64,000 bases of DNA. Source: Heliocidaris erythrogramma. Lineage: Eukaryota; Echinodermata; Echinoidea; Camarodonta; Echinometridae. Numbering within the stretch: position 1 is the stretch's first letter; each line of letters begins with the position of its first letter. The stretch is taken from assembly GCA_025617745.1 (NCBI GenBank), contig CM046853.1:33187770-33251769 (forward strand), written 5' to 3'. Made by a program: the position numbers and the translations under genes. Positions 571 to 50,990 of this stretch are shown here, piece by piece. A model generated the notes under the pieces. The model did not search any database. It was not told the DNA's origin and worked only from the letters and a program-made list of their open reading frames with translations.

Positions 571-711
571 CAGGGAGCGTTTCATCAAGCGTTTTGTCAG
601 TGATTTTTACCGACAACTGTAATAAGCTACTGAAATCCTTGCATCTGATTGGCTGAGAGCAAACTTGTCAGTAAAAATCACTGACAAAACACTTGATGAA
701 ATGCTCCCCAG
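571..711. mobile_element. MITE, shared-core family, arm type A
   Basis: Both ends read GGGAGCGTTTCATCAAG or its complement, so the whole copy folds back on itself. Each arm also contains a TTGTCAGT...GACAA sub-palindrome. The centre carries the core with CTGATTGGCTGAGAG (inverted CCAAT box), shared with eleven other copies in the window. CAG flanks both ends, which fits a 3-bp CWG target duplication as used by PIF/Harbinger-type elements. There is no coding capacity, so it must depend on a transposase supplied elsewhere. Confidence 0.85.
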
Positions 712-737
712 GTTTAGATACATTAACCTGTTGACTC

Positions 738-880
738 CAGGGGACCGTTTCATGAAAGGAAGTTGTCGGATATTTTATCCGACAACTGTTATAAGCTACT
801 GAAATCCTTGCATCTGATTGGCTGAGAGCAAATTTGTGGGATAAAATGTCTGACAAGTCCTTTCATGAAACGCCCCCCTG
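738..880. mobile_element. MITE, shared-core family, arm type B
   Basis: The element has the same central core as the copy at 571, but different arms: CGTTTCATGAAAGG followed by the near-perfect palindrome GTTGTCGGATA...TATCCGACAAC. The outer ends remain complementary (CAGGGGACCG and CGCCCCCCTG). It is non-coding and probably mobilised by the same enzyme as the type A copies. Confidence 0.85.
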
Positions 881-927
881 AATTCACATATTCCCATAGG
901 GTTAATGCAGAGATCACCAGCAATGGA

Positions 928-1335
928 TTAACCCTTTCAGGACAGAAATTAGTTAAGGACTAAATTGATCACATTTTGTTCTTCAAATTGGCAACAATAA
1001 TATTTTTGTTTTACTGCTCCATGGTTCTAATAAGGTGTAATGTCAGTGAAAACAATATACATGATTAGGAATTTTGTCGCAAAGTTTTTTAATTGCCAAT
1101 TTTGATTAAGAAACAATGATTTGAACCCCTCAATGAGTTGCCAATTTAAGGATTTTAAAACTTATTCTCATTTTTAAATTCCTGGCATCAAACACAATAT
1201 GGCGATGCAACAAAAATCGACATAGTGTGTGCAGAATTTTTTTTTACTAATGCATCTGGTATATTTCTTAGAGCTCTGAATCAAAAGTTATTGAGCCAAA
1301 CCACAAAATGTGGTCCATTGTCATGAAAGGGTTAA
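928..1335. mobile_element. TTAA-flanked MITE, about 400 bp
   Basis: The element is bounded by TTAA on both sides and by ends reading CCCTTTCAGGACA and TGTCATGAAAGGG, a short imperfect TIR. TTAA target sites are characteristic of piggyBac and Kolobok superfamilies. There is no transposase frame. A truncated relative in the opposite orientation lies at 57217-57470 and shares the blocks around CCACATTTTGTGG and the CACACTGTGTC region, which supports a real family. Confidence 0.75.
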
Positions 1336-1694
1336 GTAGGACATCTATGTACAAATAGAGTTAATAAAAATGTAAATATGAGGAGCATTTACTGAAAAAT
1401 GTGTAGTGAAACAAATGAATTGATCCATGCCTGGTATTAACAATGTGTAGAATAGCAAAAGTGCAAAAGCCACTCCCTTACTTTATCGCACTTACAAAAT
1501 TTTGATCAGAACCAGGATTTCAAATCTACAAAGTTTTTCCAGCAATTTTTATTGTCTTTAATTCTCTCTGGCAAATAGGTTCAAGGTAACACATGGAAAA
1601 AGGAGATGAAGTGAAGGTATGTTTTTGAAATCTCTGATACCCTTTTACACTGTGCCCAAATTTTAGGGCAATTCTAAATCATTTTGCCGTAAAC

Positions 1695-1900
1695 ACCAGA
1701 AGCTTTCACTTGCTTTTAACGTTTGCGAATTTCGCGATTGGCTTAGAATCACGAAAGTTTTATGCCGCGAAATCATTGAATTATGATTGACATAGATCTA
1801 GACTAACACTTAATTTTTGAAAAATTGCGAAAGCTTTTTGCTGTGAAAATGGCTGCTGTTTGAAATCCACGAAAGTTTCATGTCGCAAATGTTTCTGGTT
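1695..1900. repeat. Dispersed CGCGAAA-rich MITE-like repeat, copy 1
   Basis: The copy begins ACCAGAAGC and ends with the complement TTTCTGGTT. Between them are several CGAAAGTTT, CGCGAAAT and TGCGAAT words in both orientations. A related copy at 60133-60306 shares these words and the AGAAACTTTCGCG motif. It is non-coding and is probably a diverged non-autonomous DNA element. Confidence 0.5.
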
Positions 1901-2032
1901 GGACAGTATACTGCTCTTTCAACCCCCTAAGGAGCATTCCACAACCGATGCAGTTTCTATATGATCAAGCATTAGGCATAAGGTATCGCCACATACATGG
2001 ATAACTCAGAAGCACTATACAGTTTCCCATTG

Positions 2033-2174
2033 CAGGGGAGCATTTCATCAAGCGTTTTGTCAGTGATTTTTACTGACAAATTTGCTCTCAGCCAATCAGA
2101 TGCAAGGATTTCAGTAGTTTATAACAGTGGTCAGTAAAAATCACTGACAAAATGCTTGAAGAAACGCTCCCCTG
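2033..2174. mobile_element. MITE, shared-core family, arm type A, core on plus strand
   Basis: The arms match the copy at 571, but the core reads CAGCCAATCAGATGCAAGG on the plus strand, opposite to the copies at 571 and 2233. The flanks are CAG and CTG. Only about 60 bp separate it from the next copy at 2233. Confidence 0.85.
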
Positions 2175-2232
2175 GTCACAAAACTGGCTAATTAAACCCT
2201 CGACAGCATTTTATACTGGCATTTAGGCACCT

Positions 2233-2374
2233 CAGGGGAGCGTTTCATCAAGCTTTTTGTCAGTGATTTTTACCGACAACTGTTATAAGCTACTGAAATC
2301 CTTGCATATGATTGGCTGAGAGCAAATTTGTCAGTAAAAATCACTGACAAAACGCTTGATGAAACACTCCCCTG
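2233..2374. mobile_element. MITE, shared-core family, arm type A, core on minus strand
   Basis: A full-length copy with arms matching 571 and 2033. The core is inverted relative to 2033, so these two neighbours are related as an inverted pair. It is non-coding, with CAG and CTG flanks. Confidence 0.85.
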
Positions 2375-3537
2375 GTCCAGACCTGAAACACCTCCGAGAG
2401 TGCCCTAACTTTGAGGTGGCCAAAAAAATTTTTTCAACCCCTTTATACTGGGAGTTCATTCCTCTGAAATGCCTGAACTCCAAGTGGAATAGGAATATCT
2501 GACTCCCTCACTTTGGCTATGGAGGGCAGAATAGGATATTCATTACTCATCTTATCTCATATCATAAATTTCTACACTTTTTGAAATAATAGAAGTTTTT
2601 TTTTTTTTAGTTTTGTAATTGTATAAGATTTTGATCACAATAACAATAAACATTGATTAAATGAGAATTACTACAACCACTTACATTTCATGACCGAACA
2701 TCAAATTCACAAACATATTAATGAACAAATCATCATTGATTTATAAAACATCACAAATCAAAAACAATGAAACAGGACATCTGTTGCATGATACTTGCTA
2801 TCCTAACATTTTCAGGTAAATTAAATACCAAAAACCTTTCAAAGAAATGTTATCAGACATAAAATAAGTTTTTCATATTTAGTTTGCTGAAATGCTCTCT
2901 TGGAATGAAGGCAATGTTTGCATCTCCACATTGTATTTCTTCCTAGTAAAAGGGCTGGTTTGGCTTGTCCGATAGCGATGAGGATAATATATGCGCATAT
3001 AAAATCTACTTAAAACGCTAACTATAAAAGTGGTCCAACCAGCTGACTAATAAAATCGGTTGGGTTATGTCAATCGAGCGTGACAGGCATTGCCCACATG
3101 ATTCTTCTGAATGAACATCACCTTGAAGGAGCAAAATACGATTGGCTCTCAGAAATTATCCGTGAGATCTGTCCTGGAAAAATCGGTGACTGAGCGATTC
3201 CATCGAGGCAATAGAATCAGTGCGGGAGGCTAATTTGCAGATAATGGTCAGGTTTGACATACCATTACCACTACCGGGACACTTCCTATTCTTTTTCCAC
3301 ATAAACAACGCTTGAGCAATTTGGCAACAACCTACAGGTATACTAATCATTATCGGTCAAATGTAATCAGCCCGTAAGACTCCTGTCATACCCATGAAAC
3401 AGACACCATCCTGACAATAGACTGAACAAAAAATTACATTGCCCCAAAAGGCCAAGAGTCGGTCGCTTTTACAATGTGCGGTATAAAGTATTTATCAAGT
3501 AGTGTCTTCAAATTTGATCATGTACTGTCTTCCGAAT
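2375..3537. other. 3' flank of GPCR array with an unexplained insertion
   Basis: No gene was recognised. About 2655-2945 is a decayed copy of the flank that follows each receptor (compare 6535-6670 plus 9110-9300), so the array extends past the last receptor. About 2948-3490 has no counterpart behind receptors 2-4 and appears to be an insertion of about 540 bp into the former 3' UTR of receptor 1. It shows no clear TIR or coding frame. Confidence 0.55.
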
Positions 3538-4530
3538 TCAGGCCTCCCCTTGAACAAAAGTGGACTTAGCAGAGCAGAGATTTCTCCAGGCATATTTGTC
3601 CTTGAAATATCTCAGGGCGTTCTCACGGAATGTACGATCTCTATAGCAGTATATTATCGGATTAATGGCAGAGTTGCAGAGAAATATGTAGACTGCGACG
3701 TCTTCAAAACGGCGACTATACAGAGAACTCTTGGTATCAATCCCGAGAATGAAGAAGAAAAGATTTATAGGCATATAACAGATAAAAAACCCTACGGTAA
3801 TGAGCGTCATGGTCTTTGCCGCCTTCACACGGGAGCCGGTACCATTCTGACCTCCTACCGCCTGCTCCATCTGCGCGATTCTACGTGCATGTTGCAAAGC
3901 TGTCCGGAGAATACTCGCATTCAAAGTGATCAAGGCAATTTGTAGTAACACAAATACCGCTATCCCTGACCAGTTAAATACACTCAGAAGGAAATAAGTG
4001 TGAGTGTTCATTTCAGCGCAATAGGGTGACACTAGTGTCGGGACTTTCGGAACTTGGAATAAAAGAATCACAAGTATTCCCGCTCCGATGGCCCAGCCAA
4101 CAGCAATTACAATGGCGATTCTCTTAGAGGTGACAAGAGTCTCATAGCGAAGAGGTTTGTTAACCGCTATGTAACGATCCAATGTCACCATGAATAAATG
4201 GCACAAAGAGCCTGGGGCTAAAGTATATCCTACTGCATTCAAGTATAAGGTAAGGTGAACACATGTTACTTTTGTCAGGACAACCCTCCTGTAAGTTTCT
4301 ACAGGGATGGCAGTCCAACCAGTCAAGAAGTCTACAAAAGCCAAACTGGACAGGAGATAGTACTTGGGCTTTTGGAGACTCTCTGTTTTCAGGAAAGTTG
4401 CAAGTACCAGAAAATTTCCAACGACAACAATGAAGATGAGGAGAATGCTGAATGTTACAAGTACTGCATTGTAAGCTGGAGAATTAGAAGGAAATGCTAC
4501 AGAGATATTAGTCCCATTGATGATAGCCAT
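3538..4530 (-). CDS. Class A (rhodopsin-type) GPCR 1, orphan, intronless
   Basis: A complete 330-residue seven-TM receptor in one exon, presumably on the plasma membrane and G-protein coupled. Residues 5 and 8 are N-glycosylation sites (NGT, NIS). TM1 has GN at 38-39, TM2 has LAFVD with D67, and C90 and C171 should form the TM3-ECL2 disulfide. DRY lies at 118-120, CYMP at 251-254 replaces the usual CWxP, and NPIIY at 290-294 is followed by a charged helix-8 region. The length is typical of compact class A receptors. It belongs to the five-unit array and differs from its paralogues mainly at residues 145-200, so a variable ligand pocket is inferred; the ligand is unknown. Only about 90 bp of its own 5' flank remains before duplicated gene fragments, and the conserved AATAAA seen behind receptors 2-4 was not found. 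It may therefore be poorly or differently expressed. Confidence 0.92.
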   Translation of the reverse strand: MAIINGTNISVAFPSNSPAYNAVLVTFSILLIFIVVVGNFLVLATFLKTESLQKPKYYLLSSLAFVDFLTGWTAIPVETYRRVVLTKVTCVHLTLYLNAVGYTLAPGSLCHLFMVTLDRYIAVNKPLRYETLVTSKRIAIVIAVGWAIGAGILVILLFQVPKVPTLVSPYCAEMNTHTYFLLSVFNWSGIAVFVLLQIALITLNASILRTALQHARRIAQMEQAVGGQNGTGSRVKAAKTMTLITVGFFICYMPINLFFFILGIDTKSSLYSRRFEDVAVYIFLCNSAINPIIYCYRDRTFRENALRYFKDKYAWRNLCSAKSTFVQGEA

Positions 4531-4620
4531 GACGTAATGTAATCTATTCCAAAATCCAGATTAAATATCTGCATATCATCCAAAGTCCTCTGCAAAGTTA
4601 ATTCAATACAATCTGTTTAT

Positions 4621-4767
4621 TCAAGTATAAGGTAAGGTGAACACATGTTACTTCTGTCAGGACAACCCTCCTGTAAGTTTCTACAGGGATGGCAGTCCAA
4701 CCAGTCAAGAAGTCTACAAAAGCCAAACTGGACAGGAGATAGTACTTGGGCTTTTGGAGACTCTCTG
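4621..4767 (-). pseudogene. GPCR fragment (TM2-TM3 region)
   Basis: This 147-bp piece repeats the receptor 1 segment around residues 50-98, with no start or remaining TMs. It is joined directly to a copy of the 5' flank (AGTATATTCATCC onward). Its boundaries match those of the larger fragment at 4820-5111, so both probably arose from the same slippage or unequal-exchange series. It cannot encode a receptor. Confidence 0.85.
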
Positions 4768-4819
4768 AGTATATTCATCCAAAGTCCTCTGCAAAGTTAA
4801 TTCAATACAATCTGTTCAT

Positions 4820-5111
4820 TCAAGTATAAGGTAAGGTGAACACATGTTACTTCTGTCAGGACAACCCTCCTGTAAGTTTCTACAGGGATGGCAGTCCAAC
4901 CAGTCAAGAAGTCTACAAAAGCCAAACTGGACAGGAGATAGTACTTGGGCTTTTGGAGACTCTCTGTTTTCAGGAAAGTTGCAAGTACCAGAAAATTTCC
5001 AACGACAACAATGAAGATGAGGAGAATGCTGAATGTTACAAGTACTGCATTGTAAGCTGGAGAATTAGAAGGAAATGCTACAGAGATATTAGTCCCATTG
5101 ATGATAGCCAT
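4820..5111 (-). pseudogene. GPCR N-terminal fragment (TM1 to start of TM3)
   Basis: It has the start codon, N-terminus, TM1, TM2 and the TM3 cysteine of receptor 1. After about residue 98 it runs into duplicated 5' flank, adding a few unrelated residues before a stop near 4797. Over the shared part only one residue differs from receptor 1 (Lys to Glu just before the TM3 Cys), so the duplication is recent. This fragment retains the full native 5' flank that receptor 1 has lost, so the array promoter may now drive a non-functional stub. A functional two-TM protein is unlikely. Confidence 0.85.
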
Positions 5112-5811
5112 GACGTAATGTAATCTATTCCAAAATCCAGATTAAATATCTGCATATTATCTATTACTCTGAGTATATTCATCCAAAGTCCTCTGCAAAG
5201 TTAATTCAATACAATCTGTTAAAACAAAAGCATTGCATCAGCCAGGGAAGCACTGTTATACATTTCCTTACATGTAGCTTATGGCACTGATTTTTTTTTC
5301 CTTTGAGAAATCAGAAGTCGAACACAGCACAAAGATGACATGAAATTCCTTTCAAAATTCCTTTCAAAATTCAGTTGAATGTCATGTCTTCAATAGATGA
5401 TGTTCAAAATATGATGTTACCACTAAAAAGGCAGCAAGTTTATTCCTTTCTCTGTTACATGTACAACTGATAACATCAGCGGCTGCAATTTTAAGCAAAC
5501 AGCCGCACATAAAACAACCCGCTGCACATTTGGACCTTCTGAAACACAAAAAATATTTCAGTGATATTTGACTTTCATGCACTTTATGAAATATTAATGT
5601 CACATTCATTTTGCTCTTGCCCTATACCAAAAGCGGTAGAAAATATCGATTTGCATGAGTTTCTTTTTTTTTTGGTCTTTTTTAAAAATGATTTTTTTTT
5701 AATCTGATGCTTGTACCCAATCGCTTGAAAGTGGTTGGTATTCATGACAAGGTATAATGGAAGGTGTCACAGTCATTAAGCCCAGGAAAATGCAGAAAAT
5801 ATAGTCATTTC
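5112..5811. other. Upstream spacer of the receptor 1 unit
   Basis: It contains sequence shared with the other array spacers, such as the AAGTCCTCTGCA block near 5190 and the CTGCACATTTGGACC block near 5520. No additional gene was seen. It should hold the array promoter by position, but no convincing TATA box was found. Confidence 0.6.
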
Positions 5812-6189
5812 TGCAATTGCTTGAAATAAGCATGAAAATGAATTATTGAAAGCGTATCACCTCAGCGGGAAAATCGTTAAAAGCTTTACTGGTAATTACC
5901 AAGTTCCTATATTTTCATGGAATTGTGCCAAATATACAAGTAAGAGCATTGATTTTCATTATGTTTTATGAAAAAGGAGAAAACTTATAACACAACTAAA
6001 TGCAATTGCTTGAAATAAGCATGAAAATTAATTATTTAAAGCGTATCAGCTTTGGCAGGAAAATCGTTAATAGATTTACTGGCAATTACCAAGTTCCTAT
6101 ATTTTCATGGAATTGTGCCAAATATACAAGTAAGAGCATTGATTATCATTATGTTTTATGAAAAAGGAGAAAACTTATAACATAACTGA
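5812..6189. repeat. Tandem duplication, 2 x 189 bp
   Basis: The block beginning TGCAATTGCTTGAAATAAGC at 5812 is repeated directly from 6001, with a few substitutions. Other array units have one copy of this spacer block (for example near 11045), so this is a local duplication within one unit. Confidence 0.9.
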
Positions 6190-6674
6190 ATTTGAATGAG
6201 ATTAATTTGAGGCTGCCGTCAAGCAACTTGCTCATGTTGACAGTCTCCTTTCACAAATTTATATTTCCCATATATACATATTTTCTTTGTATTTAAAAGC
6301 AAACTGTTAATGTCTGAAAGTGTTTGTTTGTAATATTAGCTCATTTTGTATCGTGTTATTGAATACATAAAAAGAATTTAATCAAACAAGCAAATAAACA
6401 AAATAGAAAAAGACTGTCATATTAGTTTGAAAATACGGTACATAGTTATGGGTAGATGAATGGGAGATTGAAATGTTTAGGTTACTAATTGTACTCTAGC
6501 TTGGTTCACTAAGAACACTATGAAATTCATAGATGAAATTACTACAACCACTTACATCTCTCAACCAAACAGTGATATCACAGACATGGAGTTGAGCACA
6601 GCATCACTGATTAAAAAAATATTACAAATCGGACAAAAAACACACAAATGCAATAGGATACCTGGTGACATAAT

Positions 6675-9106: not shown

Positions 9107-9342
9107 AATATCTACAAGCAAATGCTCCAAAACCTAACATTTTGGGTAAACTGTCAATAACCTTACAAACTACTGATATAGAACATGAAATCAATTTTAA
9201 TCAGTTTGCAAAAAACTCAATTTATTTCGCTAAACTGTTCTCTTAACGGCTTCAGACTATGTTTGAAAGTTGCATCCATTTCTTCCTATAGTGTATGAAT
9301 AAATTGGAGACTTCAAATCTGATCACTTTCTTTCTTCCAATT

Positions 9343-10338
9343 TCAGGCCTCCGCTTGAATAAAAGTGGACTTAGCAGAACAAAGATTTCTCCAGGCAGAT
9401 TTGTCCTCGAAATATTTAAGGGCGTTCTCACGGAATGTACGATCTCGATAGCAATATATTATCGGATTAATGGCAGAGTTGCAGAAAACTATGTAGATTG
9501 CAATGTCTTCAAAAGGACGACTATACAGAGAACCCTTGGTATCAATCCCGAGAATGAAGAAGAAAAGGCTTACAGGAATATAACAGATAAAAAACCCTAC
9601 TGTAATGAGCGTCATGGTCTTTGCCACCTTCACACGAGAACTGGTAACATTTTGACCTCCTACTGCCTGTTCCATCTGCGCGATTCTACGAGCATGTCGC
9701 ATAGCTGTCTGAAGAATACTTGCATTCAAAGTGATCAAGGTGACTTGTACTATCAACAAGAACACCGTTAACACTAACAAGTAAATTAATCTATCCTGAA
9801 AATAGTTGTGTGTTTCAGCACAGTAGTACGATACCTGAGTGGGGACTTTCTGGATTCCTCTTATACATGTATCAATCACAATTGACCCCACGCCAATGCC
9901 CCAGCTAACAGCAATTACAATGGCGATTCTCTTTGGGGTGACAAAAGTCTCATAGCGAAGAGGTTTGTTAACCGCTATGTAACGATCCACTGTAACAAAG
10001 ATTAGATGAAACAAAGAGCCCATAGTTAACCCATATGATAATGCATCCAAGTATAAGTAAAGGTAAACACATGTTCTTTCTGTCAGGACAACCCTCCTGT
10101 AAGTCTGCAAAGGGATGGCAATCAAACCAATCAGAAAATCTACAAAAGCCAAACTGGACAGGAGATAGTACGTAGGCTTTCGGAGACTATCCGTTTTCAG
10201 GAAAGTTGCAAGTACCAGAAAATTTCCAATGACAACAGTGAAGATGAGGAGAATGTTGAATGTTACAAGTACTGCATTGTAAGCTGGAGAATTAGAACGA
10301 AATGCTACAGAGATATTGGTCCCGTTGAGGATAGCCAT
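9343..10338 (-). CDS. Class A GPCR 2, orphan, intronless
   Basis: Intact receptor of 331 residues from the start codon conserved in all paralogues. An in-frame ATG three codons upstream (10347) exists only here and is less likely. It has NGT and NIS glycosylation sites, GN in TM1, LAFVD in TM2, DRY at 118-120, an ECL2 Cys in YYCAE, CYIP in TM6 and NPIIY in TM7. The TM4-ECL2-TM5 segment is distinctive and closest to receptor 4; both share a longer ECL2 and IVQ(V/A)TLITLNAS in TM5. AATAAA lies on the minus strand at 9221-9226, about 120 bp past the stop, a likely poly(A) signal. The ligand is unknown, with a chemosensory role inferred only from the clustered, variable family. Confidence 0.92.
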   Translation of the reverse strand: MAILNGTNISVAFRSNSPAYNAVLVTFNILLIFTVVIGNFLVLATFLKTDSLRKPTYYLLSSLAFVDFLIGLIAIPLQTYRRVVLTERTCVYLYLYLDALSYGLTMGSLFHLIFVTVDRYIAVNKPLRYETFVTPKRIAIVIAVSWGIGVGSIVIDTCIRGIQKVPTQVSYYCAETHNYFQDRLIYLLVLTVFLLIVQVTLITLNASILQTAMRHARRIAQMEQAVGGQNVTSSRVKVAKTMTLITVGFFICYIPVSLFFFILGIDTKGSLYSRPFEDIAIYIVFCNSAINPIIYCYRDRTFRENALKYFEDKSAWRNLCSAKSTFIQAEA

Positions 10339-11197
10339 GACAGCCATAATTTATTCCAAAATCCTGACAAATATCTTTATGATCTACTTCTCTGAGTATA
10401 TTCATTCAAAGTCCTCTGCAGAAATAATTCAATACATTCTGTTCAGCTCAAAGCGTTGCATTGTATAAGCCAGTGAAACGCAAACTTCAACAAGGAACGC
10501 TGTTATACATTTCCTTTGCTTTATGGCACTTAATTTCTTTTCTTTGAGAAATCAAAAGTCCAACACATAGCACAAAGATGACATGAAGTTCCTTTCAAAA
10601 TTCAGTTGAATGTCATGGCTTCAAAAGATGACTTTACCGTTAAAACGCAGCAAGTCTATTCCTTTCTCTGTTACGACTGATAACATCATTGGCTGCTCAT
10701 TTAAGCAACAGACGCACATATAACAACTGGCTGCACATACAGTATAACAACTGCACATTTGGACCTTCTGAAAAACGAACAAATATTTCAGTGGCTTTTA
10801 TTTTCCATGCACTTTATGAAATATTAATGTCATATTCATTTTGCTCTTGCCCTATATGAAAGAGAAAATATTGCTTCAATTAGTTTATTCTCTCTTGGGG
10901 GGGGGGGGGTTCTTTCTTTTTTTCCCTGATACTTGAGCCCAATATTCTGAAAGTGATTGGTATTCATGAAAAAGTATACATGTAATGGAAAGGTGTGGCC
11001 ACAGTCTTTAAGAACAGGAAAATGCAGAAAATATTGTCAACAACTGCAATTGCTTGAAATAAGCATGAAAATTAATTATTGACAGCGTGGTGGGTTTCAG
11101 CTATAGCAGAAATATTGCTAAAAGCTTTACTGGTAATTACCAAGTTCCTTCAATGTAGATGTTCATGGCAGTGTGCCAAATATACAAGTAATATCAT
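10339..11197. other. Spacer between GPCR 2 and 3
   Basis: Array spacer homologous to 13356-14400 and 16423-17230, with no separate gene. A G homopolymer of 13 bp lies at about 10897-10909 and is missing or shorter in the other units. Confidence 0.65.
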
Positions 11198-11944: not shown

Positions 11945-12120
11945 CTGGGGGGCATTTCATGAAAGGACTTGTCAGATATTTTATACAACAAATTTACTCT
12001 CAGCCAATCAGATGCAAGGATTTCAGTAGCTTATAATAGTTGTCGGATAAAATATCCAACGACTTCTTTTCATGAAACGATAAAATATCCAACGACTTCT
12101 TTTCATGAAACGCTCCCCTG
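11945..12120. mobile_element. MITE, shared-core family, arm type B, with duplicated right arm
   Basis: The core is on the plus strand with arm type B. The right arm has a short tandem repetition (CTTCTTTTCATGAAACG twice), making this copy longer than usual. CTG flanks both sides, and the unit before receptor 1 has the empty site with one CTG (near 6660). An almost identical copy sits at the same place in the next unit (15003-15178). Confidence 0.88.
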
Positions 12121-12362: not shown

Positions 12363-13355
12363 TCAGACCTCCGCTTGAATAAAAGTGGATTTAGCAGAAC
12401 AAAGATTTTTCCAGGCAGCTTTGTCCTTAAAATATTTAAGGGCGTTCTCGCGGAATGTGCGATCACGATAGCAGTATATTATCGGATTAATGGCAGAGTT
12501 GCAGAAATATATGTAAACTGCAATGTCTTCAAAAAGGCGACTATACAGAGAATCCTCAGAATCGATCCCAACAATGAAGAAGAAAAGGTTTATGGGCATA
12601 TAACAGATAAAAAACCCTACGGTAATGAGCGTCATGGTCTTGGCCGCCTTCACACGAGAACCGGTACCATTCTGACCTCCTACCGCTTCTTCCATCTGCG
12701 CGATTCTATGTGCATGTCGCATAGCTGTCCGGAGAATACTCGCATTCAAAGTGATCAAGGCAATTTGTAGTAACAGGAACATCGTCATCCCTAACAAGAG
12801 AATTACTCTTGCGGGAAAAGTGTGAGTGTTAGTTTCAGCACAGTAGGGCGATACCAGAGTGGGGATTTTGCGGATTCCTATAAATGTATAAATCATATTT
12901 AACCCTGCGCTACTGCCCCAGCAAACAGCAATTACAATGGCAATTCTCTTAGAGGTGACAAGAGTCTCATATCGAAGAGGTTTGTTAACCGCTATGTAAC
13001 GATCCACTGTAACAAAGATTAAATGGAACAAAGAGCCAAAGGCTAAATTATTTGATACTGCATCCATGTATAAGGTAAGGTGAATGCATGTTAACTTAGT
13101 CAGGACAACCCGTAAGTAAGTCTCCACAGGGATGACAATCAAACCAGTCAGAAAATCTACAAAAGCCAAACTTGACAGGAGATAGTATGTAGGCTTTCGG
13201 AGACTATCCGTTTTCAGGAAAGTTGCAAGTACCAGAAAATTTCCAATGACAACAGTGAAGATGAGCAGAATGCTGAATGTTACAAGTACTGCGTTGTAAG
13301 CTGGAGAATTAGAACGAAATGCTACAGAGATATTGGTCCCGTCGAGGATAGCCAT
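12363..13355 (-). CDS. Class A GPCR 3, orphan, intronless
   Basis: Complete 330-residue receptor. Asp replaces Asn at residue 5, so only the NIS glycosylation site at 8-10 remains near the N-terminus. The TM1 GN, TM2 LAFVD, C90, DRY 118-120, ECL2 SPYC, TM6 CYMP and TM7 NPIIY motifs are all present. TM5 (LLQIALITLNAS) matches receptor 1, while TM2-TM3 is nearer receptor 2 in places, so the gene looks mosaic within the cluster. AATAAA at 12241-12246 (minus strand) is a likely poly(A) signal about 117 bp past the stop. The ligand is unknown. Confidence 0.92.
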   Translation of the reverse strand: MAILDGTNISVAFRSNSPAYNAVLVTFSILLIFTVVIGNFLVLATFLKTDSLRKPTYYLLSSLAFVDFLTGLIVIPVETYLRVVLTKLTCIHLTLYMDAVSNNLAFGSLFHLIFVTVDRYIAVNKPLRYETLVTSKRIAIVIAVCWGSSAGLNMIYTFIGIRKIPTLVSPYCAETNTHTFPARVILLLGMTMFLLLQIALITLNASILRTAMRHAHRIAQMEEAVGGQNGTGSRVKAAKTMTLITVGFFICYMPINLFFFIVGIDSEDSLYSRLFEDIAVYIYFCNSAINPIIYCYRDRTFRENALKYFKDKAAWKNLCSAKSTFIQAEV

Positions 13356-15002: not shown

Positions 15003-15178
15003 TGGGGGGGCATTTCATGAAAGGACTTGTCAGATATTTTATACAACAAATTTACTCTCAGCCAATCAGATGCAAGGATTTCAGTAGCTTATAATAGTTG
15101 TCGGATAAAACATCCAACGACTTCTTTTCATGAAACGATAAAATATCCAACGACTTCTTTTCATGAAACGCTCCCCTG
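15003..15178. mobile_element. MITE, shared-core family, arm type B, co-duplicated copy
   Basis: It has the same position, orientation, core and duplicated right arm as 11945-12120. It was therefore copied with the unit and is not an independent insertion. Confidence 0.88.
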
Positions 15179-15420: not shown

Positions 15421-16422
15421 TCAGACCTCCGCTTGAATAAAAGAGGATTTAGCAGAACAAAGATTTTTCCAGGCAGCTTTGTCTTTAAAATATTTAAGGG
15501 CGTTCTCGCGGAATGTGCGATCACGATAGCAGTATATTATCGGATTAATGGCAGAGTTGCAGAAAACTGTGTAGCCTGCAATGTCCTCAAAGGGGCGACT
15601 ATACAGAGAACCCTTGATATCGATCCCGAGAATAAAGAAGAAAAGATTTATGGGCATATAACAGATAAAAAACCCTACGGTAATGAGCAACATGATCTTT
15701 GCCGCCTTCACGCCAGAACCGGTACCATTCTGACCTCCTACAGCTTCTTCCATCTGCGCGATTCTACGTGCATGTCGCATAGCTGTCCGAAGAATACTTG
15801 CATTCAAAGTGATCAAGGTGGCTTGCACTATAAACAAGAATAGTGTTAACACAAATAAGTTAATTATTCTATCATGTAAATAGATGTGACTGCGTGTTTC
15901 AGCACAGTAGGGGGATACCGGAGTGGGGATTTTCCGGATTCCTATTAAACATGTATCAAACACAATTGAACCCACGCCAATGCCCCAGCTAACAGCAATT
16001 ACAATGGCGATTCTCTTAGACGTAACAAGAGTCTTATATCGAAGAGGTTTGTTAACCGCTATGTAACGATCCACTGTAACAAAGATTAGATGAAACAAAG
16101 AGCCCATAGCTAACCCATATGATACTGTATTCAAGTATAAGGTAAGGTTAACACATGTTACTTCTGTCAGGACAACCCTCCTGTAAGTCTCCACAGGGAT
16201 GGCAATCAAACCAATAAGGAAATCTGCAAAAGCCAAACTGGACAGGAGATAGTATGTAGGCTTTCGGAGACTATCCGTTTTCAGGAAAGTTGCAAGTACC
16301 AGAAAATTTCCAATGACAACAGTGAAGATGAGCAGAATGCTGAATGTTACAAGTACTGCATTGTAAGCTGGAGAATTAGAACGAAATGCTACAGAGATAT
16401 TGGTCCCATTGAGGATAGCCAT
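15421..16422 (-). CDS. Class A GPCR 4, orphan, intronless
   Basis: Intact receptor of 333 residues from the conserved start. The frame stays open 24 codons further to an ATG at 16494, but that extension is homologous to untranslated flank in the other units, so the inner start is preferred. It has NGT/NIS sites, GN in TM1, LAFAD in TM2, DRY at 118-120, SPYC in ECL2, CYMP in TM6 and NPIIY in TM7. The third loop reads GSGVKAAKIM where the paralogues have GSRVKAAKTM. ECL2 and TM5 are closest to receptor 2. AATAAA at 15298-15303 (minus strand) is the likely poly(A) signal. The ligand is unknown. Confidence 0.92.
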   Translation of the reverse strand: MAILNGTNISVAFRSNSPAYNAVLVTFSILLIFTVVIGNFLVLATFLKTDSLRKPTYYLLSSLAFADFLIGLIAIPVETYRRVVLTEVTCVNLTLYLNTVSYGLAMGSLFHLIFVTVDRYIAVNKPLRYKTLVTSKRIAIVIAVSWGIGVGSIVFDTCLIGIRKIPTPVSPYCAETRSHIYLHDRIINLFVLTLFLFIVQATLITLNASILRTAMRHARRIAQMEEAVGGQNGTGSGVKAAKIMLLITVGFFICYMPINLFFFILGIDIKGSLYSRPFEDIAGYTVFCNSAINPIIYCYRDRTFRENALKYFKDKAAWKNLCSAKSSFIQAEV

Positions 16423-17419
16423 GACGTAATGTAATTTATTCCAAAATCCTGACAAATATCTTAATGATCTACTTCTCTGAGTATATTCATTCAAAGTCCT
16501 CTGAAGAAATAATTCAATACATTCTGTTCAGATCAAAGCGTTGCATTGCATAAGCCAGCGAAACCTAACCTTCAACAAGGAACGCTGTTATACATTTCCT
16601 TTGCTTTATGGAACTTTATAATTTCTTTTCTTTGAGAAATCAAAAGTCCAACACATAGCACAAAGATGACATGAAGTTCCTTTCAAAATTCAGTTGAATG
16701 TCATGGCTTCAAGATGACTTTACCGTTAAAAGCGCAACAAGTCTATTCCTTTCTCTGTTACGACTGATAACATCACTGGCTGCTCATTTAAGCAACAGCC
16801 GCACATATAACAACTGGCTGCACATTTGGACCTTCTGAAAAATGAACAAATATTTCAGTTACATTCAACTTTCATGCACTTTATGAAATATTAATGTCAG
16901 TCATTTTGCTCTTGCCCTATACAAAAAGAGGTAGAAAATATTGCTTCCATGAGTTTCTCTTTTTGGGGGGTCCTTTTCTTTCTTTCTGATACTTAATTTA
17001 GCCCAATATTCTGAAAGTGATTGGTATTCATGAAAAAGTATAATGGAAATGTGTAGCCAAAGTCTTTAAACACAGGAAATGCATAGAGTATTGTCATTAA
17101 CTGCAATTGAAATACGCATGAAAATTAAATATTGAAAGCGTGGTGGGTTTCAGCTATAGCAGAAAAATTGCTAAAAGCTTTACTGGTAATTACCAAATTC
17201 CTATATTTTGCATGGAACTGTGCCAAATATACAAGTAAGATCATTGATCATCATTATATTTCATGAAAAAGGAGAAAACATAACTGAATTTGAATGAGAT
17301 TAATTTGAGGCGCCGTCAAGCAACTCTCTCATGATGACAGTCTCCTTCTTTCACAAATTCTGTTAATTGTAAAATGTTAAATTCCCATATACATAGTTAC
17401 TTTGTATTTAGAAATATAC
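16423..17419. other. Array spacer upstream of GPCR 4
   Basis: Collinear with the spacers at 10339 and 13356. It ends abruptly at about 17419, where spacer joins the middle of the next receptor gene, marking a deletion breakpoint. No gene was recognised. Confidence 0.6.
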
Positions 17420-21616: not shown

Positions 21617-21720
21617 GGCCCTGTTTCATGAAACTTGTCATCAATGACAAGCTGCAATAACTGTTATAAGCTACTGAAATCCTTGCATCTGATTGGCTGA
21701 GAGTAACATGATCACAAAGA
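21617..21720. mobile_element. MITE, shared-core family, arm type C, partial
   Basis: The left arm reads GGCCCTGTTTCATGAAAC followed by the hairpin CTTGTCATCAATGACAAG. The shared core is on the minus strand. The right arm is largely lost after GAGAGTAAC. Confidence 0.75.
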
Positions 21721-32380: not shown

Positions 32381-32462
32381 ACATCAGATGCGGGTATTTC
32401 AGTAGCTTATAACTGTTATTGTAACTTTTCATAGATATCAAGTGTTATGGAAACGGGGGCCC
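32381..32462. mobile_element. MITE, shared-core family, half copy (type C arm)
   Basis: Contains ATCAGATGCGGGTATTTCAG, GCTTATAACTGTTAT and a degraded right arm ending GGAAACGGGGGCCC. The left half with the CCAAT box is missing. Confidence 0.65.
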
Positions 32463-37498: not shown

Positions 37499-37631
37499 GC
37501 AGTTTCATAAAACTTGTTATCGATAACAAGTTGCAATAACTGATATAAGCTACTGAAACCCTTGCATCTGATTGGCTGAGAACAAATTTGTTACAGAACT
37601 TTGTCATTGATAAAAGGTTTTATGAAACAGC
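37499..37631. mobile_element. MITE, shared-core family, arm type C
   Basis: The arms read GTTTCATAAA and TTTATGAAAC. The left arm contains ACTTGTTATCGATAACAAGT, a perfect 20-bp palindrome. The core is on the minus strand (CTGATTGGCTGAGA). Confidence 0.85.
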
Positions 37632-40129: not shown

Positions 40130-40542
40130 CACTATGAGTCAATAAAAAGGAAATCAAGCCCCAATATTTTAAATTAAAAACCGAATGAAATCGCTGAAAT
40201 GCATTCAACTGGTAAGTTGATAATGTATCCTTTAATTTGATTGGCTGCTAACCGAAATGCGATCATTGATGACTGAGCTCTGGCCATTTACAAAAAGCAT
40301 GTCAAAAACGAGTTTGGATTGAATGGTGTTCAGGAGTTACTTTCATTGTTTGTGAGTGCATTCAACTGGAATGGAGACCATTCAACCAACCTTGGGTGTT
40401 CCACCCATTTCATTCTAAAGTGAGGCAGAGTTGTATTTCACTGATCAAGGTGTCACATTGGCGAAACTGTGAGTGTCTTTGATTAAACCTAAGGGTGTTC
40501 GGCGTTGAATTTTGGATTCTCTTTTTTCATTGACTCACTCTG
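40130..40542. mobile_element. Mariner-type MITE with TA target duplication
   Basis: The ends CACTATGAGTCAATAAAAAG and CATTGACTCACTCTG (complementary to CAGAGTGAGTCAATG) form a TIR of about 22 bp with mismatches. TA flanks both ends. The length is 413 bp with no transposase. TA duplication and the GAGTCAAT end fit Tc1/mariner. Confidence 0.7.
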
Positions 40543-40831: not shown

Positions 40832-40856
40832 GGGGGGGGGGGGGGGGGGGGGGGGG
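40832..40856. repeat. Poly-G tract, about 25 bp
   Basis: Uninterrupted G run; the length is uncertain. Confidence 0.9.
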
Positions 40857-41830: not shown

Positions 41831-42019
41831 TCCTGTTTGAATAAGAAGCACTTTTTTCCTCCTCTTGCCGTTTTAGTCTCGACCATCCTTTTCTGTTATT
41901 TTGATTGGCGGTTTTGTGTCTGATGGTTGTTGCTATTGACATTAATTCAGTGTAAAGTAAGTAAGAATTATTGCCTCTAATTGGGACAGGCTTAATAGGA
42001 GTTTTTCAAGGTATGAAAA

Positions 42020-43959: not shown

Positions 43960-44250
43960 CCGTGCTCCCCAAGCCGCTGACGGCGCAGCGACGACTACTC
44001 CTACCGTTCCAGCGTTCCTGCCGTGCAACTCACCGCCGTAATAATAATTGGCCAATCCCCCAACGCCAGCATCGAGCTGTCAGACGCTTCTGTCTCCTCT
44101 CCGACGACCGGGATGTGCATTTAATGAAATTAAAATGACTCTCCTTCATCATTGCCCATCGATCGCATTACCTAAATGTGTATGCCCCTCATCGTCCATT
44201 GTCAATTTCATTACCTACTCTGTTCGGTTAAGACAGCTCCGTGAACATGA
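43960..44250. promoter_or_regulatory. CpG-richer candidate regulatory block
   Basis: GC content rises locally with several CpG words, a GGCCAAT box near 44050, GAGCTGTCAGAC (MEIS-like TGTCA) and TTTAATGAAATTAAAATGAC. Its composition suggests constraint, but no gene start was found. The function is inferred only from composition. Confidence 0.22.
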
Positions 44251-44507
44251 TAGACTATCTTGTCAACACCTCGCTCACTTAGTTTCCCCCACTCAAATTC
44301 TATTTAAGTGCAATGTAAACTTTAGATCAGATGGTAATTTGGAATGCAGCAAACATTGCCAATATGCTAAACTGTAAAACATACTTTACTCTAAGATATA
44401 CAAATGGAGAAACCAGCTCAACAGCGTAAAGTGCATGCATATCAATGATCTTCCATTTGTATTTCAAGAACCGTGAAGCGTGATTAAAAGTGATACTAAA
44501 GTTCAAA

Positions 44508-44649
44508 CTGGGGAGCGTTTCATCAAGTGTTTTGTCAGTGATTTTTACCGACTAATTTGCTCTCAGCCAATCAGATGCAAGGATTTCAGTAGCTTATAAC
44601 AGTTGTCGGTAAAAATCACTGACACAACGCTTCATGAAACGCTCCCCTG
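44508..44649. mobile_element. MITE, shared-core family, arm type A, complete
   Basis: The arms GGGAGCGTTTCATCAAG and CTTCATGAAACGCTCCC are flanked by CTG on both sides. The core CAGCCAATCAGATGCAAGG is on the plus strand. This is one of the best-preserved copies. Confidence 0.88.
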
Positions 44650-45944
44650 ATATTAAACTTCTCAAAACACATCTCTTCCCAGAATAGTTAAACCCTTCCA
44701 TTTCTTTCAAACTTCATGCTTAATACATTCATTTTTATTCTATGTTATGTATTATTGAGTTTGTATTAATGTTATGTTATTAATTATAGCGATATTATGT
44801 TAAGTATGATTAAATTTGTAAACACTGTGATAGTTGTACTATGGAGATTGTACTAAATGTTAGTTACTATTATCATTATTATTTGAATGCACATGTTTTT
44901 AAACTTGCTTTCATTTTACGAAAAGTTCAAATCATTTAGTCTAGTCTTTTTTCATGCAAAGATAATATCCTGGACCTCACACACATTCTCCCCTTTCTGC
45001 ACTTTTATGAGTCAAATGTTTTGTTATGTAAATCATTAGTATGTTCTTTAATTCAAAATATGCAGCAAGGCATCTGAAAAGGGAAATTTTGGAACACTTC
45101 ATTCATATGTGTATAATCTACTCTGGGTGCTATATGGAAACAAATATATCCAGAATGTACCCTTTGCTATGAAGCCAGAGAGACTGTAAGTTACAAAATG
45201 TTGCCTTTTAAACAAAAATACAATCACATTTTCCAAAACACAAAGAAAAATATTACCAACAACATGAAATATTCGAAATACAAGTGAGATAATACCCCCT
45301 CCTCTACCCAATCCATTCAAAGAAACATCTATGAAAAACTATTTGTTTTATTTCAAATAAAACAAATTTTATCTCAAATTAAATGAAGTACATGTTTTTT
45401 TTTTCATATTCGTTACCCAACATTCTAGCCCCCTTCCCCACATACTGTGCATTCCTTCCCCACTCACATTAAGAGCAATCCGTGAAGCCCTTTATTGAAG
45501 TTGCCTTCATTCATGCTTTACGTTCACGAAGGAAAAAAAATTTGCCAGGCCGTCAGTCTGGTGTCCGATATGAATTCATCAAATCATACATTGCCCCAAC
45601 CAATTAGGGGTTCCATGCCATCCCAACCAATTAACGAGGTGAAAAATTGGTTCTAAATTTAGAGCTCTGGTCCTAGTATCTGTCTCCTAACTCCCCTCAT
45701 GCCTTCCCTTTCTCTCCTGAGTATACCCCCTTCCCTTTCATTTCCTATCTTTCCACAACCCCTCATGCCCCTCCAAATTCTTATAAATGTCACTGCCATA
45801 CTTTATGCACCTTCCATAGTCATCAATTCTATCCATTTCTTTCCTGCATGAAGAAAAATCATGATAAACATGACCGGTCAGTATACTCTCCAAAGTAGAC
45901 TGAATTTGAATAGGCCAAGCTATTATAAAATCGCTGACTTATAG
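44650..45944. other. Gene-free stretch
   Basis: No supported gene. About 45470-45660 is less AT-rich and contains CCAACCAATTAGGGG with a second CCAACCAATTA, a possible regulatory patch. Confidence 0.4.
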
Positions 45945-46390
45945 CCTGTTTATATAGATTACAAGAAAAAGTTATAGGAGACTCGTATGAAGAAACATCG
46001 TATGAAGAATTATGATTAGCGAAAGGAGTGTTCAGACTCCAACATCGTATAAAGAAACAGGTTTTGGGGAAGTCGGCTGACACAGTATGTTTTGTATCAG
46101 GTTACGTCAAGGACAGCGATGGAGTATACGATATTACAGCTGATTGGTCATATCAGTATACACACACATTAAGCCCCGCCCAGTTATACGATTCTGGTAC
46201 GAAACAATGTTCAGACTACAAGAGGATGCTTGTTCTTTATCTAGTTTTCATTCGATACAATGCTCAAACACGTGTTTCGCTATATACAACATTTCTTGAT
46301 ACAGTATTCAGGCTACGAAAATTTCATTATTTATCGTATAGCTATACGATTGTTGTACAGCCATACAATGAAGTTTGGTAGTCTGACCAA
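45945..46390. repeat. Dispersed repeat with GTTCAGAC words, copy 2
   Basis: Contains repeated AAACATCGTATA-type and GTTCAGACT words and CACATTAAGCCCCGCCCAG, shared with 28140-28540. Confidence 0.5.
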
Positions 46391-47434
46391 GGGGTATATG
46401 GGTGAATCATTCCATTATTCTAATTCTAAATTATTATTCTTCTAATTATAAATTATTGGAATTCTGTCATTAGAAGAAAAAAAAACACATCACATCATTT
46501 ATTTCTCGCTTTCATTTGACGACTCAATAACTTTTGTTTATTAATATTGTTACAAACTAATAAATTTGTGCAGAAGGGAGAGGTTCACACTTGGTGGTTG
46601 TTAAATAAGCTGACTACAAGCTTAACTTTAATCCGCTTTCTATAATACCAGCCTTTATCTTTATTTTTTGTCTTACATTTTTCCAAAGATGATTGTAAAC
46701 TATCATGCTTTATCAAATACCAAGTATTTCCTTAAAAGAATAACACATCCTTAATTTATCCCTCTTCCTCATCTATAAAAGTCATTATGACATCACTTTC
46801 TAGATCATTAAAGTTGACATTAACTTTACAGTGTAAGCATAACTGTAATGAAAGTCACTATCGTAGATATGATTTATTTCACTTTCCTATACAGTACATA
46901 TACGTAGGTGTATATTTATTATAAAGGATAATATTAGTGGACTCTGATCGTAAAAATGTCACACCCCAAAGCAGCAGACTTAACTGAAAGTTTTGAAAGT
47001 CTCATCTAGACTCATTCAGGTAAAATTATTACTTATTATTTGTTTCAGTTTCTCTCTTTCAATTTTGAATAAAATAAGAGATAAAATCATATATTTCTCC
47101 GCATGACTTCCTCAAGCATAACCGAAAGTTGATACAACAGGCAATTAATGATAAGATCTAGATGTGTGGGCGATTTTATACGGATGCAATGTCAATATCA
47201 AACCTTGTTAATGTCCGTTTTTGAACACTTAGCCAAGTTTAATTGATACTTGAAACAAAAAAAAATACTATGGTTATAATAAAACTTGCATATCCCTTCT
47301 TATATCTACTCATGATACCATTGCCTTCAATTTGTTTATGGTCTTTTTGGTTTTGTTAAGCTTTGAAATCATCTCATATGTGATAATTATGATTAATGAT
47401 CTACATGTAAAATTCCAAGTGGGCCTACATGTAT
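46391..47434. other. AT-rich gene-free stretch
   Basis: Nothing supported. Confidence 0.5.
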
Positions 47435-47698
47435 GGGGTCCGCTCGCTATTCATAAGGACGGTTATTCATAGAAAACTGCTACTCATTTAACATGCGTTA
47501 TAAATAGCGGTCCTTATGAATAGTTATTAATAGTGATCCTTATGAATGGAGGTCCTTACGAATAGCGAGGTAATTTGTCTATGGTTTGCTCGCTATTTAG
47601 AAGGACCGCTATCCATACAAAACCGCTATTCATTTAGTCACGCGTTTTGGATAGCAGTCCTTATGAATAGTGGTCCTTATGATTAGCGAGGTTACCCC
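47435..47698. mobile_element. Fold-back element built of CTATTCATAAGGAC words
   Basis: The outer ends GGGGTCCGCTCGCTATTC and TAGCGAGGTTACCCC are inverted. Inside, CTATTCATAAGGAC-like words occur about eight times in both orientations. A second inner boundary near 47570-47590 (TAGCGAGGTAA, TTTGCTCGCTATT) makes it look like two head-to-tail copies of one 130-bp palindrome. It is non-coding. Confidence 0.75.
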
Positions 47699-47747
47699 AC
47701 ATGTATATCCTCTGTTGGGTGTTAGAAGGTCATTAACTCGATGTTAA

Positions 47748-48110
47748 AGAGAAGGTTGAGTTCAGGGAAAGGTGAAAAAATAATTTGTGAGCCTTCTGAT
47801 TCATTCTCTTCAAATGCCCTCATCTTCGATATATGACGAGAAACAGGTGAAGTGTTCGGGCCAAACATTCATGCCAAATGTGTGTGTGCAGTCCCATATA
47901 CCCATTTCTGTGTGCAGTGCATGTGCTTTTCAGCGAGATTGGGTCAATTTCTTATCATTTTGATGATTCGAAAACCTCATAGTATACACCAATTTTTATT
48001 TAGACATGATCAACCTTTCCGCATAGTTTTCAGAAAATTACTATCACAATGCAATCGCATGACCAGAACTCAACTTTATCTTTAATAGAATTTCAGAATA
48101 TGACTGTAAT
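47748..48110. repeat. Dispersed repeat X, uninterrupted copy
   Basis: Matches 58033-59290 in pieces: ATAATTTGTGAGC, TATGACGAGAAACAG, GTGCATGTGCTTTTCAG, AGTATACACCAATT and CACAATGCAATCGCATGA. Here the parts are contiguous, while the 58-kb copy is split by inserted elements. A frame at 47852-48085 is partly conserved in translation between copies (SIHQFLFRHD and SIHQFLRRHD), so a decayed coding origin is possible. Confidence 0.8.
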
Positions 48111-48140
48111 CCCATTCTAGCTCTCTGCAGATGATAATAC

Positions 48141-48218
48141 TGTCCACTGAGAGCCAGAGGGCATTATCTCACATACTTTTTTAACACAGAGTTTTTATGC
48201 CCTTCTGCCTCTCGACAT
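48141..48218. mobile_element. Hairpin micro-element, GAGCCAGAAGGGC family, copy 3
   Basis: TGTCCACTGAGAGCCAGAGG pairs with CTTCTGCCTCTCGACA around a CATACTTTT loop. It is the most diverged of three copies. Confidence 0.7.
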
Positions 48219-48608
48219 ACGTTATACTGTAAATTACATACAAGACTCTTGAAAGTCAACTTGTGCACTAAAATCTTTGGTTTTGAGGTAGGAAAGAAAT
48301 TGCATTTCTAAATTGTATACGTTGATTGAAATCAATAAAACATACCGGTATATATGAAAACGAATCAAAAATTTGAACTTGCAGTTTTTAATGTATTTTT
48401 GATCTTTATAATGGCACATACTTTTAGATTATATGCTTTGGAAATTGTCTTTCAGGGACTTTCTCCTTTTCTAAAGCTAATTGCTAACTCGGGTAATGGA
48501 ACTGCATTGAAAGAGAAATTGACTTATTTACCAGGCAGTTGATATGTGGTGGATCAGCAATAAACAAACTAAAGAAAACTTGCTGAAAATTACATTCATT
48601 GCAATACC
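48219..48608. other. Gene-free stretch
   Basis: Short open frames only. Confidence 0.4.
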
Positions 48609-48757
48609 TGGGCCCCGTTTCATAAAACTAGTTAATGAAGTACATGTAACAACTGCTACATTTCTACATGTATGACAAATATGGTCTCAGCCAATCAGAT
48701 GCAAGGATTTCAGTAGATTATAACAGTTATATCAAGTTTTATGAAACAGGGCCCCGA
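48609..48757. mobile_element. MITE, shared-core family, arm type C
   Basis: The ends GGGCCCCGTTTCATAAAAC and GTTTTATGAAACAGGGCCCC are complementary. The core is on the plus strand. The inner left arm has diverged and contains repeated TACATGTA words. Confidence 0.85.
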
Positions 48758-48960
48758 TATATTGCTCAACACACAGTCTGGATGACTACAATGTAGCTCG
48801 ATTTTCTTACCCTTCTTTGCTCATTACTCAACTGGTATACACTTTCCACTAAAATCATTTAACAGCTTTCATTTATTTTTAACATTAAATATTTGAATTC
48901 AGAGTAAGTGTCATCAGAATTGTTGTGATTTTAAACGCCTCCTGATGTCTCATTCACATC

Positions 48961-49050
48961 TTCAGACATTCTCTCCATCATTCAGACATTCTCTCTATCA
49001 TTCAGACATTCTCTCTGTTATTCAGACCTTCTCTCTGTCATTCAAACAAT
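48961..49050. repeat. 20-bp minisatellite, 4-5 copies
   Basis: Units of TTCAGACATTCTCTCTATCA with small changes. Confidence 0.9.
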
Positions 49051-50845
49051 TTGTCCTTTGCAAGCACAAGGCTATGGTCTATCTTTAGACAAAGTCTTCA
49101 AGTAACAACAAATATAGTTCAGCCTGTACTACATGCAGTGTCCTAATTGTGCTTCATTTAGACCAAGGACCTGGCACTGCATTGCAATTTGCTATACACA
49201 TGGTTCTTATCAGACTCTGTAGAATGCACAACATGTATGTAATAAGTGTATCACTAAAACAGGGCTTGACGCTAAAGGTTCGTTCACATGATGCTGTAAA
49301 ACCAATCAGACAAGTACATGTTTTTTGATGCTGGACAGCGGATAATTTCTCTGCGTCTAGAACCCACACGTGGGGGAAACTGTCGGCGGTACGGTCCCAA
49401 CTGCGCACTCGTGATTTCGAGTCATTTGAATCAGCAAGCTACAACACAGGAAGAATATTGGTGATGCCAGCAAATTAAACACAGTTTTTTCATCAAAATA
49501 CTCGTCAAATTGTGAATATCGGACACATGCTCATGAGGTAAAGGATTTTTCTTCAAATATTTAAGTACAAATTTTCATCTTACCTTGTTCCGTTTGAAAC
49601 AATTCGGAACCAAACTGGAAAAGATTTTGACTCTGTATATTTGTACCAGGTGCGTGGGTCTGATACATTGGAATGATCGGGGCTCAGTAGGCATATGATA
49701 GGGGTCATTTGGAAATTGTCAAAATCATTGGAGTCATATGTACATGCAAAAAACAGCCAACATTTAGAGGTATGAATTATGAATTTCACAGGGTCATCTG
49801 CCTTTGGACCGATTTTAGTTGACCCCTTTTACATCTGTTGTTCGAAGCAATATAAATACCCAATGAACACCCTCTTTCTTACACCAATACCTTCAAACTA
49901 TCAGCTAACGATCCATAACCATCAGATTAATTACAGTCTGAATTGTAGACAATAGGACAATGTGACCTTTGTAGGGCAATAAAGATATAAGAATATTACA
50001 ATAATAATCCACTTGACTGTAATTTGTGGGAATAAATGCTGGTAGGATACAAGGCTGTGTGCCCCTTCCCAGGGACGACCGTTTCTAAGGTATTGTTTAC
50101 CATTTACAAACCATAAGGCCAAATGAAAAGAAAAAAAATGCATTACTTCTCTGTCCTTGCAAATACATTGTAGCTGACACGTCAAAGAAATATTGCTTCA
50201 ATATTTGGAATTTAAAAAGAAAAACACAAATGATGGTAAGTAACTTTTACAAGCTTTCTTCCACATCATATAATCACTTCACTTGCTGCCTTTCAAAGCA
50301 TACATGTAGCACATGCACACAGGGAGTCTAAAATCTATACCTTATAACACTACAATTCTGCAAAAAAAGGTCTATATGATACTTTTCGGAAATCTTCTTT
50401 TCCTATGAATAATATACATGTGATTTTTTGATAAGTGAATTGTTCCCTTTAAGATTTCTGAACATATAAGTCAGACATACTTAATAAAAATGTTGAGTTT
50501 TCAAATTCGCTATTATACAGAACTATATATAGCCCATGCAGTTGTTTTCAAAGTTTTTATAATATACACTGGTAGACACTTTGCAATTCTACAGATATAC
50601 ATGAAGCTGTATCACTATGGATACCTTGCCATAACTTCCTGGTAGAGTGAGTACCAATAAAAGCTCATCCCTCAGGGTGGAGAAGGAGAATGGAGTCATG
50701 ACGTCGTCGATATCACTCATGCAATGCCAAAAATAGAAAAACATGCAGAAATCACATATATACATGCGTTTAAAGATGAATTCCCAATCCCACTTGATTA
50801 CTCCATTAGCTGTTCTGCAACGTGAACTCTGCATCAACCGCAAAG
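49051..50845. other. Gene-free stretch
   Basis: No supported gene. About 50600-50810 has a TGACGTCG CRE-like site, CAATAAAAG and CCAAAAATAG words; a regulatory role is only a guess. Confidence 0.45.
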
Positions 50846-50990
50846 CTGGGGGGCGTTTCATCAAGTGTCTTGTCTGTGATTTTTACCGACAAATTTGCTC
50901 TCAGCCAATCAGATGCAAGGATTTCAGTAGCTTATAACGGTTATTGCAACCTGTCATTGATGACAAGTTTTATGAAACAGTCCTCTGATG
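50846..50990. mobile_element. MITE, shared-core family, chimeric arms (A left, C right)
   Basis: The left arm is type A (GGGGGGCGTTTCATCAAG, TTTTTACCGACAA). The core is normal. The right arm after the core is type C (TGTCATTGATGACAAG, TTTTATGAAACAG). The outer ends therefore no longer pair well. It is evidence for exchange between element types sharing the core. Confidence 0.82.

Follow-up and report, generated by a model that had tools for sequence, protein, structure and literature searches.

Mixed-arm copies and arm exchange in a short, highly repeated element of the sea urchin Heliocidaris erythrogramma

The stretch of Heliocidaris erythrogramma DNA analysed here, referred to below as the window, comprises 64,000 nucleotides (positions 33,187,770 to 33,251,769 of contig CM046853.1, assembly GCA_025617745.1) and contains repeated copies of a short element in which one common core is placed between arms of several types, designated A, B and C. 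Do the core and the arms share a single line of descent, or are the arms replaced around the core? The initial annotation of the window proposed either the replacement of arms by exchange or selection on the fold-back structure formed by complementary arms. We find that arm exchange is real: copies with an A arm on the left and a C arm on the right (AC; arm order is given throughout as left/right in the orientation of the core) constitute an amplified mixed-arm class, and copies combining A and B arms (AB and BA) are rare hybrids.

One core, several arms

The core common to all arm types measures 52 bp and contains TTATAA and CAGCCAATCAG, the latter resembling a CCAAT box. With up to 3 mismatches allowed, a 19-mer of the core, CAGCCAATCAGATGCAAGG, matches the window 12 times and 100 shuffles not once; ten of the matches are exact, the one at 2300 has a single mismatch and the one at 40229 has three. 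The match at 40229 was rejected as a copy of the element, having no arms around it, and a search with a core profile added a remnant at 32383 (16.8 bits). One common core had been annotated correctly, while the twelve copies listed become 11 clear copies and the remnant, and the core extends beyond the reported length of about 46 bp. In the genome (1.064 Gb in 26 contigs) the exact 19-mer is found 13,182 times (6,568 + 6,614) and its reversed control is absent; TTTCAT and ATGAAA accompany 9,214 of the genome's core matches at fitting distances on both sides. The element, about 138 bp long, has the features of a miniature inverted-repeat transposable element (MITE), being short and present in high copy number, with terminal inverted repeats and a target duplication; its non-coding character is judged by length only. 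Probably all these copies form a single non-autonomous family of short DNA transposons, very abundant in the genome, in which a fixed 52-bp core is joined to several arm versions. The viral contigs searched for the element contained no matches, and a literature search with six stretches of the element's own sequence found no paper.

The window and loci on contig C1 supplied 103 distinct copies, mostly picked by the exact 19-mer, in which the arms were classed by alignment; these copies remained of 106 core matches after the removal of exact duplicates, and still include segmental duplicates with similar flanks. The sample contains 60 AA, 17 BB, 12 AC, 6 CC and 1 AB copies, along with 7 copies with one unclassed arm. 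The difference between arm types noted in the initial annotation is located mainly in the middle of the arm, whereas the outer GTTTCATNAA is common to A, B and C arms, and a frame is shared as well, TTGTC...GACAA in A, B and right C arms and TTGTT...AACAA in left C arms. Consensus sequences of different arm types are overall 52-81% alike, with an identity of 0.75 between AA-left and BB-left and of 0.58 between AA-left and CC-left, against 0.93 between the two AA arms and 0.87 between the two BB arms. The AC consensus combines both kinds: its left arm has an identity of 0.89 to AA-left, its right arm of 0.93 to CC-right, and the two are 0.57 identical to each other.

Genome-wide class counts were obtained from exact arm-centre motifs at a fixed distance from a 15-bp core. 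By this measure AC copies (741) are about as numerous as BB copies (781), and there are 21 AB and 15 BA matches. A left C arm combined with a right A or B arm is found in 3 exact matches, all with a right A arm and assigned by motif alone, and a left B arm with a right C arm in none. The motifs capture 30 of the 60 AA, 9 of the 17 BB, 5 of the 12 AC, 2 of the 6 CC and the single AB copy of the sample, each in its own class; since this amounts to about half of the sampled copies, the exact counts should be about half of the true ones. The AA class likely has several thousand copies in the genome, a figure that is an estimate. At L016:6821-6980 lies a relative further removed, perhaps a fourth arm class, whose ends are GGGCCC, whose arms consist of palindromes based on TTACCATNAATGGTAA and whose diverged core retains CAGCCAATCA and AAGG.

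The 52-bp core consensus is identical in AA, BB, AC and CC copies. The distance between cores of different classes exceeds that within classes by 0.435 over the 33 sites outside the sampling 19-mer (87 copies after the removal of segmental duplicates), a value reached by 68 of 500 label shuffles and not significant. A core phylogeny tracking arm type perfectly, which the initial annotation took as the mark of simple old divergence, is not seen in this comparison, to which the short core lends little power. About 10 of 43 positions, or 23%, distinguish A from B arms (our own count for AA-right against BB-left), and at that level of difference the probability of finding no differences in the 33 core sites is 1.8e-4. 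The absence of core differences despite the divergence of the arms indicates that core and arms do not have a single history at one rate.

Part of this contrast could be due to constraint acting on the core. In its full form this explanation has one lineage diverging: selection in the source copies preserves the core, and the arms change faster, with compensatory changes. The distant relative at L016, which has other arms and still retains CAGCCAATCA and AAGG centrally, is in line with it, as is the common frame of A and B arms, whose differences are few enough for B to have diverged from A. Such divergence, however, yields no copies in which the same core stands between an A arm and an arm of type C or B, and the core decays within classes too, its decay being slightly weaker than that of the arms (within-class mean identity 0.944-0.969 for the core outside the 19-mer, 0.929-0.945 for AA and BB arms). 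We regard constraint as unlikely to be the whole explanation. The initial annotation had named as support few arm classes, paired within copies, around one core clade; the arms are indeed mostly paired, with AC, AB and BA copies as the mixed departures, and its proposal of arm replacement by exchange is upheld by the identical core consensus, the lack of significant core structure by class and the presence of mixed-arm copies across the genome.

Hybrids and their formation

The motif matches of the rare hybrids were read individually. True hybrids make up 13 of the 15 BA matches, at 12 loci, and 14 of the 18 AB matches read, at 13 loci; the reading covers 18 of the 21 AB matches, and two of the other three are placed by their coordinates in a second copy of the L122 cluster. 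AB and BA copies are rare and roughly reciprocal, as exchange predicts. Among BA hybrids, two lineages are each found at several loci with unrelated flanks (L089 with L099; L095, L096 and L098), and hybrids therefore appear to transpose.

BA hybrids adjoin another copy of the element at 5 of 12 loci (L091, L096, L098, L099 and L103), the junction being CWG (CAG or CTG) in four of the five and CTT at L091. In the general sample adjoining copies number 2 of 93, being one pair, and a third match of the search pattern, at L025, proved false on reading. The difference is supported for BA hybrids (Fisher p = 1.5e-4) and for BA and AB hybrids together (6 of 25, p = 0.0011). Exchange within clusters is thus suggested for BA hybrids, and not for AB. 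Clusters are also seen as such: in L108 a coreless A palindrome lies between a B/B copy and the B/A hybrid, and L108, L107, L104, L105 and L106 contain chains of adjoining copies, mostly joined at a single common CWG, the outer flanks of the L107 chain being themselves inverted repeats.

Several observations weigh against the explanation by exchange. The combinations of A and C arms are not reciprocal, the AC class outnumbering copies with a left C and a right A arm more than two hundredfold, and the latter are known by motif only. This gap is as expected of a multiplied founder, AC being an amplified lineage and not the product of frequent exchange. Among the 13 loci with AB hybrids, a single one (L125) has an adjoining copy, so that the cluster route is founded on BA hybrids. 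The low power of the core comparison counts here as well.

Of 76 right arms, 2 (L093 and L112) look like A/B mosaics, with two or more diagnostic sites for either type arranged in blocks. Stretches resembling A and B occur within a single right arm in L112, L122 and L093, and motif matches like those of L122 are seen again at C7:35730708 and C7:35730879.

A literature search on the replacement of arms or terminal inverted repeats and on chimeric MITEs found no matching case; the one paper it gave deals with MITEs derived from hAT elements at inversion breakpoints (PMC12368964, in excerpt). The TU elements of sea urchins, fold-back transposons described as modular, would be a comparable system; a literature search for them gave no paper. 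The nearest precedent is Galileo, of the P superfamily, whose subfamilies are already known to exchange their ends: some copies in Drosophila mojavensis are chimeric, their two ends coming from different subfamilies, others carry the ends of one subfamily around the middle of another, and both are attributed to exchange between copies (PMC3573991, in excerpt). In the same excerpts, 12 chimeric copies of Galileo are bounded by non-matching 7-bp sequences, and non-matching target duplications are what ectopic crossover of that kind would leave. AB and BA hybrids depart from this pattern, W being equal in the two flanking CWG repeats in 12 of the 16 scorable hybrids (of 25), much as in the family's other copies; with one informative base, the comparison is weak. 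A further difference from the Galileo chimeras, as far as these are covered by the excerpts, is the multiplication of AC copies into a class of 741 exact matches.

In this family a whole arm would be replaced at a time, the common core and the common outer ends giving copies the homology for recombination, gene conversion or template switching with one another. Occasional hybrids would then transpose and found new classes, of which AC may be the successful one.

Arm pairing, ends and target site

Arm types and arm pairing can be compared among the copies of the window. Four A/A copies, at 573..709 (minus strand; arms 573-614 and 667-709, core 616-665), 2035..2172 (plus; core 2079-2128), 2235..2372 (minus; core 2279-2328, the 19-mer with one mismatch) and 44510..44647 (plus; core 44554-44603), have arms of 43-47 nt that are 93-94% complementary. 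The B/B copies lie at 740..877 (minus; core 785-834), 11947..12118 (plus) and 15005..15176 (plus), and the A and B assignments of the initial annotation stand for all seven. The copy at 11947 contains a tandem duplication inside its right arm; it and the copy at 15005, an apparent segmental duplicate, share the flanks on both sides as well as the internal duplication, and for this reason look like one insertion duplicated with its surroundings. Both sit between members of an array of four similar single-frame genes of rhodopsin-type receptors on the minus strand (3538-4530, 9343-10347, 12363-13355 and 15421-16494), which match PF00001 with E values of 1e-36 to 1e-37 and fit an animal host.

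Of the copies annotated as C type, those at 37499..37630 (minus; core 37539-37588) and 48610..48754 (plus; core 48678-48727) are C/C, while two have a right C arm only: 21617..21706 (minus), with a core and an unrecognisable left arm, and the remnant at 32383..32459 (plus), with a decayed partial core. The copy at 50849..50981 (plus; core 50892-50941), which the initial annotation left without an arm type, is an A-left/C-right mixed copy. The complementarity of each arm to its partner, claimed for all copies, accordingly holds for the A copies, is reduced to 76% in the C/C copy at 37499 and fails in the A/C hybrid. Another inverted repeat, with 57-nt arms that are 72% complementary, occupies 47415-47718 and contains TATTCATAAGGAC motifs; similar motifs stand next to element copies in L026.

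Single-strand DNA folding, compared with 200 shuffles, reveals strong fold-back in two AA copies (z = -13.6 at 2235 and -12.5 at 44510) and in the BB copy at 740 (z = -8.1). The AC copy at 50849-50981, the only one of its class that was folded, shows no fold-back (z = -0.9, with 33 of 200 shuffles as good), and only the outer part of its arms pairs. Sub-palindromes within each arm are visible, as had been described; two single arms folded alone stay within the range of chance, an A arm giving z = -0.7, with 34 of 200 shuffles folding as well, and a C arm z = -1.2, with 29 of 200. Ongoing conversion between the arms of a copy is unsupported both in AA copies (similarity 0.888 for arms of one copy and 0.883 for arms of different copies, 129 of 2000 shuffles; 57 of the 60 copies after the removal of segmental duplicates) and in BB copies (0.814 against 0.809, 245 of 2000 shuffles). 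As the arms of a copy do not resemble each other significantly more than arms from different copies do, their pairing looks like a property inherited from the founder. Matching arms would arise when a founder copies one arm inverted onto the other side, and not by continuous homogenisation.

Selection could also keep the arms paired, if a hairpin were needed for transposition or replication. The strong folds of the AA and BB copies agree with such selection, and so does the within-copy similarity of AA arms, which is slightly above that between copies. It is nonetheless highly improbable: AC arms match poorly, the tested AC copy is without a fold, and AC copies are by motif about as many as BB copies. 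Of the two possibilities raised in the initial annotation, selection on fold-back for mobility is the one left unsupported by the AC class, whose abundance suggests that a long fold-back is not needed for spreading. The apparent requirement for mobility is the presence of the common outer ends, GGG and GTTTCATNAA, on the left and right alike, not a long fold-back.

A scan of duplication lengths from 2 to 9 in 65 AA and BB copies gives CW and CWG the highest rank (observed 33 and 31, expected 21.2 and 19.8, respectively). Duplications of 8 bp were not conspicuous in these copies, and membership in the hAT superfamily was rejected. Among 45 copies with flanking CAG or CTG, 31 have the same W on both sides (p = 0.008 against one half). 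The remaining 14 are left unexplained by an exact duplication, and base changes hardly seem able to account for so large a number in elements that are well preserved in other respects; equality of W, being that of one base, is in turn weak evidence. The three positions after the left CWG are G in 44, 48 and 44 of 50 AA copies, giving GGG ends, and the flanks form a weak palindrome around CWG.

The element is probably NuwaI-like, within the PIF/Harbinger superfamily, as judged from GGG at its ends and from the CWG duplication of its target. The NuwaI group of the PHIS (PIF/Harbinger) superfamily is described as having a CWG target duplication, ends that mostly start with GGG and inverted repeats of 12-61 bp, and as being present in animals only (PMC4482050, in part); section 7 of that source presents mainly autonomous candidates of about 4.5 kb and counts 3,845 copies over all surveyed genomes. 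The element resembles NuwaI, as far as described there, in its duplication, its ends and the length of its inverted repeats, which in the A copies of the window falls in this range. It differs in its small size and in its 13,182 exact core matches in one genome. Harbinger3_DR and Harbinger3N_DR of zebrafish have a palindromic target centred on CCWGG, AAACACCWGGTCTTT (PMC3016246, in part). The flanks of our element are likewise palindromic around CWG, but the extended target is much weaker here.

Arms as putative address labels

Arm swapping could let the core ride different autonomous partners, each arm class being the putative recognition site of a different pair of transposase and Myb-like protein. 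This would extend the explanation by arm exchange and does not exclude it. Discrete arm classes, class-specific arm centres and common ends are consistent with a change of partners, as is the binding of the Myb-like ORF1 protein to the ends of Harbinger3N_DR (PMC2836001, in part); we put it forward tentatively, as a possibility of fairly low probability. The arms would then be exchangeable putative address labels, and it is conceivable, though doubtful, that one passenger core trades recognition arms and moves between autonomous partner lineages. If so, the AC class shows one label of each kind on a single element.

Simple descent is the usual reading of MITE subfamilies. In the present family of about 13,000 copies, the ends and the centre have separate histories, and a class with mixed ends has multiplied. 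A direct test is thereby possible, both of arm classes against different transposases and of the restoration of matched ends after a swap.

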